A stretch of 64,000 nucleotides of DNA, from positions 1-64,000 of the forward strand of contig CANPIC010000005.1 in the NCBI GenBank assembly GCA_947574055.1, written 5' to 3'. The notes below the pieces were generated by a model that was not told the DNA's origin, searched no databases, and worked only from the letters and a program-made list of their open reading frames with translations. Below, piece after piece: positions 22,730 to 26,246 of this stretch. This DNA is from an uncultured bacterium. Lineage in GTDB: Bacteria; Bacillota; Clostridia; Lachnospirales; Lachnospiraceae. The first letter of the stretch is position 1. Every line of letters starts with the position of its first letter. The position numbers and the translations under genes were made by a program.

Positions 22730-23149
22730 TCAGTCATTGCACCCGCAGGGGGAACAGGGAAATACAGGCGGTCTGGGAGGCATCGGCGGCACCGGATCAC
22801 ACCCGCAGCCACAGTTATTGTCACAATCGCAGCCCGTATGACAGCCGCAGTTATTAGTATTGTCATTGCCGCAGCCACAGCCGATATTGATGCCACAATT
22901 ATTATTATTATCATTGCCACAATTACAGCCACAGCCGATGTTGATGCCGCAATTATTGTCATTGCCACTGTCACAGCCACAGCCCACATTGGCACCACAA
23001 TTATTATTGTCATTACACCCGCAGCCAACGTTGATATTGCAGTCCGTATGACAGCCACAGCCATTGTTATTGCCACAGCCACAGCCGATGCTGCATCCCT
23101 TACCATGATGACAGCAACAGATTAAAATGAGCCAGCATAAAAAATTCAT
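22730..23149 (-). CDS. Small Cys/Gly/Asn-rich repeat protein with N-terminal hydrophobic segment
   Basis: Start preceded by aaaaggagtaaaagaaat-ATG on the minus strand; MNFLCWLILICCC leader then repeats CGxNxGCGC; 32 Cys in 139 aa. Confidence 0.75.
   Translation of the reverse strand: MNFLCWLILICCCHHGKGCSIGCGCGNNNGCGCHTDCNINVGCGCNDNNNCGANVGCGCDSGNDNNCGINIGCGCNCGNDNNNNCGINIGCGCGNDNTNNCGCHTGCDCDNNCGCGCDPVPPMPPRPPVFPCSPCGCND
22800..23095. repeat. Degenerate short-period DNA repeat encoding the Cys-rich repeats
   Basis: Recurrent ccacagccgat(a/g)ttgatgcc(a/g)caattatt-type units about 50-60 nt apart. Confidence 0.75.
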
Positions 23150-23206: not shown

Positions 23207-23767
23207 CTACCTGGCAATATGATACCCTTTTTTCCTTTGGGCGCGGATATAGGCAAATGTTTTTCTTTCACCCTTTTCGGCCAGCAGCCGCAATAACTTT
23301 TCCAGTCTCTTTCTTGTATAGGGATGCAGGAAAGACTCCATTCTGCCCACACCCTTTTCATAATACGTAAGAGGATCCCGGTCCGTATAAGCCCTGCCGT
23401 TATAAATCTTGGATGCGGCGATCCTGTCCATAAGCATCTCTATGATATAACGGTCCGGCATGGGAGCAGGCTGCATCCCGTTTTTGCACTGCCGCTCATC
23501 CGAACTGTAATCCAGCCAGTATTCATAATGATGTTTATTCCTCCCTTTATGATGAAGCCATGCGGAAGAATAGCCTCTTGCTTCCCGCTCTGCATTGTTG
23601 GGACTGCGGTTCCCCTGGAAATATCTGGCGCCCACCCAGAATTCAGAGGGAGAATATTTGGACAGATCATGCAACAGACCCTGTTTATACAGCCCAACGG
23701 CAAAGCAGCCCTTCATTACCAGCAGTTTGTGACTGGTAATCGTCTTGAAATGTTTCCATATATGCAT
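23207..23767 (-). CDS. DUF5662-like protein
   Basis: HKLLVMKGCFAVGLYKQGLLHDLSKYSPSEFWVGARYFQG...SSAWLHHKGRNKHHYEYW. Confidence 0.7.
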   Translation of the reverse strand: MHIWKHFKTITSHKLLVMKGCFAVGLYKQGLLHDLSKYSPSEFWVGARYFQGNRSPNNAEREARGYSSAWLHHKGRNKHHYEYWLDYSSDERQCKNGMQPAPMPDRYIIEMLMDRIAASKIYNGRAYTDRDPLTYYEKGVGRMESFLHPYTRKRLEKLLRLLAEKGERKTFAYIRAQRKKGYHIAR

Positions 23768-25584
23768 TACTTTTCTTCCTTTTTTCTTTTCTTTTCCGCC
23801 CGGTACACCCGGACAGAGCGCCCCTCCGCCACTATCACACTGCCGGCCCGGACTTCTTCTTCCTGCACCGCTTCACTGAGCGCTGTATCCAGACAAAGTT
23901 GCCACTGCATATCCCGTGAAATTTTGGGCAGCGCAAATTCATGCGGTTCCCAGTGCATATTATAAGCTGTATAAAAAGAAGAATCCTCCCGGCCATCCGG
24001 ATTTTTTACATATCTTCCACAGTACATAACCCCGGCATAAAAGCTGTCGCTGTCCAGGGAAGGACGCCATGCCTCCCGACCATGCACCGAGATATCGGGA
24101 CAACCATAACTGAGATAATCCATGCCCTGCAGCGGCTTTTCCTGCCTAAACACCCCATGCGCAAGCCGGAATGCGATCAGATTTCTTGTAAATTCATACA
24201 TTTTCCGGCCCGAGCGCAGCAGCTTCCAGTCAATCCAGGTAACAGCATTATCCTGACAATATGGATTGTTATTGCCTTCCTGCGTCTGTCCAAATTCATC
24301 CCCGCTCTGCAGATAGGGTGTCCCCTGAGAAAGAAACAGCAAAGACAATGCGTTGCGCACCTGCTTTTGCCGGAGCATCTGTACCGTCCGCTTTCTGGAA
24401 CGGCCTTCCGCGCCGCAGTTCCAGCTGTTATTTTGGTCTGTACCGTCCCGATTGTCCTCTCCGTTATCCTCGTTATGCTTTCTGTCATAAGAGACAAGAT
24501 CCATCAGGGTAAAACCGTTGTATCCTGCCATACAATTAATGATGCCCACATTTTCCTCATTGTTTCGTAGGCAGTGCAGCATAACTCTCACACATCCGCT
24601 GTCCCCTTTCAGCGCCCGCCGCATATCACGGGTAAAGCCCTCCTGCCAGAATCCCAGATTTTTCCCCGAAACCTTGGCGGCTTCCCGGTGGATCTCCTCG
24701 CGGGAAAAATACTCAAAGATCAACTTGGTATCCTGCAAAAAAGGGTCCGGAAAAAGCAGGGAAGGCGGCAGCCTCTTTCCAATCAGATGAAACCCATCCA
24801 CATGATATTCCTCCACCCAGAAATGAAGGATATCCGGTATCTCTCCCACCGGATAATCTTCCGGAAAATAAAGCTGCATCAGCACTTCAATCCCTGCCTT
24901 GTGAAGTGCTCTGACCATATCCTTCACTTCAGACGATGCATCTTTCCCATAAGCATATGCACTCTTAGGGGCATAATAATACCCCTGCTTAAATCCCCAG
25001 TAATTAATTTTCTCCCTGTCTTCTTTCTGGTACTGCCCCTGTATCCGCTCGAACTCATCAAACTCCCAGGCTGGCATCAGCGCCACCGCCGTAATGCCCA
25101 GTTCTTTTAAATAAGGTATTTTTTCCTGAACTCCGGCAAATGTTCCCTTTTTTTTCACGCCGGAAGAAGTGTGCCTGGTAAATCCCCTCACATGGATACC
25201 ATAAATCACCGACTCACTGTATGGCCGTCTGGGAGCCTTATCCTCTGTCCAGTCATAGACCTTACCCGGCAGCTGATAACGGATTTCTCCTTTTTCACGT
25301 CCGTATTCCCGCATGCCGGTCACACCTCTGGCATAAAGATCCGCTACCGCCACACCGTCCACATAATAGCGATAGCTGTCGGCCTCCCGCGGAATATCCT
25401 CCACCAACACACTGTACATCCTTCCCTGTCTGTAACTGTCCGGCACCGGGATACTCATAAGTTCTTTTTCTCCGGCATAAACCATGATCCTCACATCGCT
25501 GGCCGGACTCTTTATCTGAAATACAAATTGGAACGATTTCCCCGTTGCCGTAACACCTTTTGGATAAAAATTTCCCTTCCTCAT
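23767..25584 (-). CDS. GlgX/isoamylase-like GH13 family protein, predicted catalytically inactive
   Basis: Strong GlgX signatures (DLVSYDRKHNEDNGEDNRDG, SQGTPYLQSGDEFGQTQEGNNNPYCQDNAVTWIDW) but catalytic motifs substituted (see findings). Confidence 0.85.
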   Translation of the reverse strand: MRKGNFYPKGVTATGKSFQFVFQIKSPASDVRIMVYAGEKELMSIPVPDSYRQGRMYSVLVEDIPREADSYRYYVDGVAVADLYARGVTGMREYGREKGEIRYQLPGKVYDWTEDKAPRRPYSESVIYGIHVRGFTRHTSSGVKKKGTFAGVQEKIPYLKELGITAVALMPAWEFDEFERIQGQYQKEDREKINYWGFKQGYYYAPKSAYAYGKDASSEVKDMVRALHKAGIEVLMQLYFPEDYPVGEIPDILHFWVEEYHVDGFHLIGKRLPPSLLFPDPFLQDTKLIFEYFSREEIHREAAKVSGKNLGFWQEGFTRDMRRALKGDSGCVRVMLHCLRNNEENVGIINCMAGYNGFTLMDLVSYDRKHNEDNGEDNRDGTDQNNSWNCGAEGRSRKRTVQMLRQKQVRNALSLLFLSQGTPYLQSGDEFGQTQEGNNNPYCQDNAVTWIDWKLLRSGRKMYEFTRNLIAFRLAHGVFRQEKPLQGMDYLSYGCPDISVHGREAWRPSLDSDSFYAGVMYCGRYVKNPDGREDSSFYTAYNMHWEPHEFALPKISRDMQWQLCLDTALSEAVQEEEVRAGSVIVAEGRSVRVYRAEKKRKKEEK

Positions 25585-25853: not shown

Positions 25854-25882
25854 TTTACATTTCTCTGATCTTTTTGTACAAT
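25854..25882 (+). promoter_or_regulatory. Promoter of DUF1292 gene
   Basis: TTTACA (25854-25859) N17 TACAAT (25877-25882). Confidence 0.6.
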
Positions 25883-25922
25883 GAGAGGGAACAATAAACT
25901 CTGGGAAAGGAAGGTATATGGT

Positions 25923-26246
25923 ATGGGAAACCGCGGGGAACTGGATGAAGAGATGACAGTGGAACTGGATCTGGAAGACGGTTCAAAAGTGACATGTGCC
26001 ATTATCACGATTCTGACTCTGCAAAATCAGGATTACATTGCCCTTCTTCCATTGGATGAAAAAGGTGAGAATACGGACGGAGAAGTATGGTTCTATCGTT
26101 ATCACGAAGACGAGAATGACCCTGATGCGGAGCCGGAACTGACTTACATCGAGGATGAAGCGGAATATGAGATCGTTGCTGATGTTTTTGACGAATATCT
26201 GGATCATGAAGAATTTGACGAACTCGTGGAAGAAGAAGATTTTTAA
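25923..26246 (+). CDS. DUF1292 family acidic protein
   Basis: VELDLEDGSKVTCAIITILTLQNQDYIALLPLDE...VWFYRYHEDE; start trimmed because the longer ORF start overlaps the -10 box. Confidence 0.85.
   Translation: MGNRGELDEEMTVELDLEDGSKVTCAIITILTLQNQDYIALLPLDEKGENTDGEVWFYRYHEDENDPDAEPELTYIEDEAEYEIVADVFDEYLDHEEFDELVEEEDF

Follow-up and report, generated by a model that had tools for sequence, protein, structure and literature searches.

A probably non-catalytic GlgX paralogue confined to Lachnospiraceae retains the equivalents of GlgX sugar-contact residues

Catalysis in the GH13 family depends on a triad composed of an Asp nucleophile, a Glu acid/base and an Asp stabiliser. Non-catalytic paralogues of polyglucan enzymes have been described, and those that we found, ISA2 and MKIP1, all come from plants. 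ISA2 is a GlgX/isoamylase paralogue that has lost its catalytic residues yet persists; its central channel is predicted to be blocked and it binds glucan through SBS1 only (PMC12510319). MKIP1 is a starch-branching-enzyme homologue that lost its activity, carries a 150-residue insertion and has a role in RNA splicing (PMC13172542). In glycogen-making Firmicutes, GlgC is the catalytic subunit beside GlgD (PMC10395257). Regarding the active enzymes, S. venezuelae GlgX contacts acarbose through W222, Y224, H271, D342, E378, W380 and H449 at subsite -1 and through R212, E470, N534 and Y536 further out, and its c-di-GMP-sensing residues are not conserved in TreX or E. coli GlgX (PMC9530166). Here we compare these systems with a gene located in the window, the whole 64,000-nucleotide stretch of Lachnospiraceae DNA that was analysed.

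The gene (P0001) occupies positions 23767..25584 on the reverse strand and reads from ATG to stop as 605 amino acids with no frame break, consistent with the original prediction of an intact reading frame. The GlgX homology proposed at the same time was also confirmed, since the protein matches the TIGR02100 GlgX profile with E=1.8e-91. Its score of 307.3 bits is below half of the curated cut-off of 640.9 bits and therefore places it outside the profile's own membership. Profile, fold, tree and alignment together identify the protein as a GH13_11-like GlgX/isoamylase homologue. An intact GlgX is also present in this genome, on contig C13; its score of 641.7 bits barely exceeds the TIGR02100 cut-off. 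This intact GlgX (L001, 1471-3699, reverse strand) matched rice ISA1 with 557.8 bits, TreX with 495.9 and E. coli GlgX with 375.3. The N-terminus of the window protein, judged by eye, has no obvious signal peptide, which suggests a cytosolic protein. We refer to the window protein and its homologues without catalytic motifs as pseudo-GlgX.

Replacement of the conserved GH13 regions had been predicted for the window protein and proved to be common to the homologues examined. All features below lie on the reverse strand. Former region I reads QLYFPE (residues 237-242, 24859..24876) where GlgX has DVVFNH, so that the catalytic-site Asp, Asn and His are lost. The sequence originally reported for this region (GIEVLMQLYFPED, residues 231-243) was correct and spans 24856-24894, but the coordinates given with it, 24859-24885, correspond to VLMQLYFPE. 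Former region II reads DGFHLI (residues 263-268, 24781..24798) instead of DGFRFD, which puts Ile268 at the nucleophile position. In former region III, KLIFEYF (residues 287-293, 24706..24726), the acid/base Glu is formally present as E291, and the region IV His-Asp pair is now Tyr355-Asn356 (24517..24522). The positions first assigned to VDGFHLIGKR (24772-24801) and to Y-N (24517-24522) were exact. With I268, E291 and N356 at its three positions, the catalytic triad of the window protein is incomplete.

The alignment of 148 distinct homologues extended this pattern to the whole group. The nucleophile Asp occurs in none of the 148, compared with 38 of 38 GlgX sequences, and the main replacements at this position are Met, Asn, Leu, Ile, Val and Lys. 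Likewise, none of the 123 representatives has the region I His. The region III Glu that the window protein retains (LIFEYF) is found in only 44 of the 148 homologues, and the region IV His and Asp are found in 29 and 32, respectively, with the complete pair in only 5. Regions I and II are separated by a median of 26 residues in pseudo-GlgX versus 70 in GlgX, in keeping with the predicted shortening. Among the divergent members examined, no intermediate with an intact active site was seen, and regions I and II were intact in none. Judged from this motif loss, pseudo-GlgX is probably a catalytically dead GlgX homologue. In one sub-clade (L204, L206, L222) the open frames are shorter, about 570-600 amino acids, and in several relatives of this sub-clade the profile match is split in two (about 1-302 and 325-619), which suggests a further loss around region III.

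To the extent that structure can be predicted, the fold is preserved. An AlphaFold2 model built with 56 sequences reached a mean pLDDT of 88 and a pTM of 0.91 and is GlgX/ISA1-like. Its top PDB matches were rice ISA1, Chlamydomonas ISA1 and S. venezuelae GlgX (TM about 0.83), and ISA2 chains ranked lower (TM 0.76-0.78). Since the window protein matches ISA2 more weakly than GlgX/ISA1 in both sequence and fold (ISA2 itself is outside our tree), a separate origin of pseudo-GlgX and plant ISA2 is suggested. In a quick tree of 72 sequences with pullulanases as the outgroup, the 39 sampled homologues grouped in a clade of their own (SH-aLRT 98), with clostridial GlgX as its sister group, which fits a single loss followed by long conservation. 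A single origin of pseudo-GlgX, through divergence of a GlgX-like precursor, is most likely.

Pseudo-GlgX is confined to Lachnospiraceae. Of 10 searched genomes from the same genus, counting the window's own, 9 carry a close homologue; those of the eight further genomes share 46-63% identity with the window protein. In a family draw of 250 Lachnospiraceae genomes, about one per genus, two genomes were ambiguous and left out, and 194 of the remaining 248 carry pseudo-GlgX, corresponding to about 78% of the sampled genera. In a class-level draw, every full-length match belonged to Lachnospiraceae, and the high-scoring matches from other families retain active motifs. An earlier description of such a protein was not found in the literature we searched, which was also searched for DUF5662; its partial coverage, with few subscription papers, makes this weak evidence of novelty.

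The acarbose contacts of S. venezuelae GlgX were mapped by alignment (chain index = residue + 3, an offset inferred from several motifs). H271 and D342 are lost and E378, W380 and H449 are mostly lost; the Y224 equivalent is Tyr or Phe, and R212 falls within a variable segment. In contrast, the equivalents of W222, E470, N534 and Y536 are retained in 148, 147, 146 and 145 of the 148 homologues, respectively. In the window protein the Trp222 equivalent is W196 (24997..24999). Glu470 corresponds to E376, which lies in a strongly conserved loop (YDRKHNEDNGEDNRDGTDQNNSWNCGAEG, residues 366-394, 24403..24489) and is Glu in pseudo-GlgX, yet Trp in most clostridial GlgX. Asn534 and Tyr536 correspond to N440 and Y442 of the GNNNPYCQDN loop (residues 437-446, 24247..24276), and both positions are invariant where aligned, one Trp excepted. 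Of the columns that are invariant in GlgX, pseudo-GlgX keeps 25 of 38 in the region that includes both cleft loops and 8 of 9 in the C-domain, versus 3 of 35 in the region II/III segment. At 67 of the 71 positions that are at least 95% invariant in pseudo-GlgX the residue is that of GlgX, and only four differ from the usual GlgX residue. Together with the near-invariant contacts, this indicates that the conserved part is the old cleft rather than a new surface. The median dN/dS over 14 non-overlapping homologue pairs was 0.084 and the highest 0.143, indicative of strong purifying selection and in line with the repurposing, as opposed to decay, that had been predicted.

Compared with GlgX/TreX (GH13_11, TIGR02100), pseudo-GlgX therefore shares the fold, most of the length, the loops KHNE.NGE.N.DG..N.SWNCG.EG and GDEfg...GNNN.YCQDN and the sugar contacts W222, N534 and Y536, but it is shorter, lacks the nucleophile and the region I His, has mostly lost the acid/base and the His-Asp pair, and is left with a region I-II loop of 26 residues. 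It resembles ISA2 in being a dead isoamylase paralogue without the conserved GH13 catalytic residues. This likeness need not extend to partner or mechanism: pseudo-GlgX keeps the central-cleft contacts and often occurs without any GlgX/ISA1-type partner.

On balance we favour the view that pseudo-GlgX is a catalytically dead, Lachnospiraceae-restricted GlgX paralogue which binds glucan and acts in glycogen metabolism, usually without GlgX. Motif loss, a single clade, purifying selection, the conserved contacts, the predicted fold and the many carriers without GlgX are computational results, whereas glucan binding, a part in glycogen metabolism and the mode of action are inferred. A GlgX-like ancestor would have diverged once, losing its catalytic Asp along with the region I His and the greater part of the loop between regions I and II, while strong selection would have preserved the fold together with the glucan-holding part of the substrate cleft. 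The resulting intracellular protein would recognise, but not cut, glycogen or branched dextrins and may thereby regulate, protect or scaffold glycogen metabolism, usually with no GlgX involved. More tentatively, and with rather less than even confidence, we propose a family-wide bacterial pseudoenzyme that reads glucan: it would keep a branched chain in its cleft without cutting it and, with no dependence on GlgX, would govern how glycogen is built up, protected or mobilised. It would have evolved separately from plant ISA2 and kept the central cleft that is predicted to be blocked in ISA2. Against the favoured view, model confidence is lowest in the most conserved loop (367-393), so that the model does not distinguish an open from a closed cleft. 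Found in about four fifths of the sampled genera of Lachnospiraceae, an important family of the gut, this single-clade group would represent a bacterial counterpart of the plant proteins, probably separately evolved, and would bear on the control of stored glycogen in these bacteria. GlgX gene counts and glycogen-debranching claims for gut bacteria may also be inflated by this probably non-cutting protein.

The genomic context is less favourable to a glycogen-related function. Pseudo-GlgX usually adjoins helicase, tRNA-ligase and DUF genes and not glycogen genes, the recurrent neighbours being a UvrD-type helicase and a glutamate-tRNA ligase (both named from sequence), DUF1292, DUF5662 and TrpS. 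Although GlgA is near-universal (242 of 250 genomes), pseudo-GlgX is missing from about 20% of the genomes sampled, which also counts against our view. Such a neighbourhood would fit a neofunctionalised scaffold in which the GH13 fold is reused for protein–protein or protein–RNA contacts with no glucan role, as exemplified by MKIP1 (PMC13172542), which is likewise a conserved non-catalytic homologue of a polyglucan enzyme. Pseudo-GlgX, unlike MKIP1, is shorter than GlgX and has conserved cleft residues. We consider a scaffold unlikely, since the glucan contacts are essentially invariant and the near-invariant positions are overwhelmingly those of GlgX. Its absence where GlgA and GlgC are both absent also argues against a scaffold. 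Eight genomes have no GlgA above the cut-off. In four of these GlgC is missing too, and none of the four carries pseudo-GlgX (p=0.002 ignoring phylogeny; three of the four are less than 90% complete). GlgC is present in the remaining four, of which three carry pseudo-GlgX. The four genomes without GlgA and GlgC thus hint at a link between pseudo-GlgX and glycogen metabolism. A further search for genomes devoid of glycogen synthesis largely recovered those already sampled.

GlgD offers a parallel within the same bacteria and the same pathway, as an accessory paralogue, and GlgC with an adjacent lower-scoring paralogue does occur in these genomes. It differs in fold and enzyme, and GlgD adjoins GlgC whereas pseudo-GlgX is usually distant from glycogen genes. 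In genome G000 (contigs C3 and C6) there are two GlgC copies, each adjoining a lower-scoring GlgC paralogue that is probably GlgD.

A regulatory partnership with active GlgX, modelled on ISA2, had been raised as a possible function of the window protein. In this scenario pseudo-GlgX and the intact GlgX of its host cell would assemble into a hetero-oligomer, comparable to the ISA1 complexes that contain the non-catalytic isoamylase ISA2 (PMC12510319). The window's genome encodes both proteins, and in the genomes that are at least 90% complete, both occur in 59, pseudo-GlgX alone in 103, GlgX alone in 6 and neither in 36, a positive association (odds ratio 3.4, p=0.005, phylogeny ignored). The two genes also lie within a few kilobases of each other in two genomes: in one (L230, 5807-11738, reverse strand) the order is GlgX, ABC-F ATPase, pseudo-GlgX, co-directional and tightly packed, with the GlgX and ABC-F genes overlapping by 4 bases, and in the other (L231) GlgX lies within about 2 kb of pseudo-GlgX. 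However, the 103 carriers without any intact GlgX mean that GlgX cannot be an obligate partner. An obligate partnership was therefore rejected, the suggested ISA2-like role is not supported as a general function, and we regard a regulatory subunit of GlgX as unlikely.

The frequent absence of GlgX raises the question of whether pseudo-GlgX replaces it as a still-active enzyme, either with relocated catalytic residues or with another glucan reaction. A missing debrancher is conceivable, given the many carriers without GlgX and the finding of type I pullulanase in only 50 of 200 genomes, and the cleft loop does contain three acidic residues, E376, D380 and E372, that are invariant or nearly so in pseudo-GlgX. 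These acids are not new, however, because E372 and D380 are conserved in active GlgX too and E376 is the substrate-contact Glu. With only four near-invariant positions deviating from GlgX, the homologue alignment revealed no new near-invariant acid pair near the old site, and relocation of the catalytic residues was rejected on this basis. The chiefly non-acidic residues at the nucleophile position, listed above, point the same way, making a retained activity very improbable. A pseudogene or assembly artefact, which the loss of catalytic motifs might suggest if taken alone, is scarcely credible given intact open reading frames across the family, a dN/dS of about 0.08 and conserved gene order.

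Directly downstream of the window gene lies a DUF5662 gene (23207..23767, reverse strand; PF18907, E=1.5e-38), and the predicted 1-nucleotide overlap between the two was confirmed. DUF5662 is directly downstream in 57 of 80 loci and frequently overlaps the pseudo-GlgX gene in homologous loci. The suggested partnership was not borne out: adjacency is conserved, but across genomes the two genes co-occur no more often than by chance (Fisher p=0.47), and a dedicated partnership was rejected. H33, D34, H72, H73, H79, H80 and D86 are invariant in DUF5662, and the HD and HH pairs among them suggest a metal-binding HD-like fold. A Foldseek search with the predicted structure gave no significant PDB match, and a weak HD-phosphohydrolase resemblance was seen. 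Upstream, a divergent gene encodes a DUF1292 protein (25881..26246, forward strand), which is found in 57 homologous loci and on the opposite strand in 53. Between the DUF5662 gene and trpS, a 139-amino-acid open reading frame very rich in Cys, Gly and Asn (22730-23149, reverse strand) contains repeats such as GCGCNDNNNCG, and short Cys/Asn-rich open reading frames occur downstream of pseudo-GlgX in about 15 of 80 loci.
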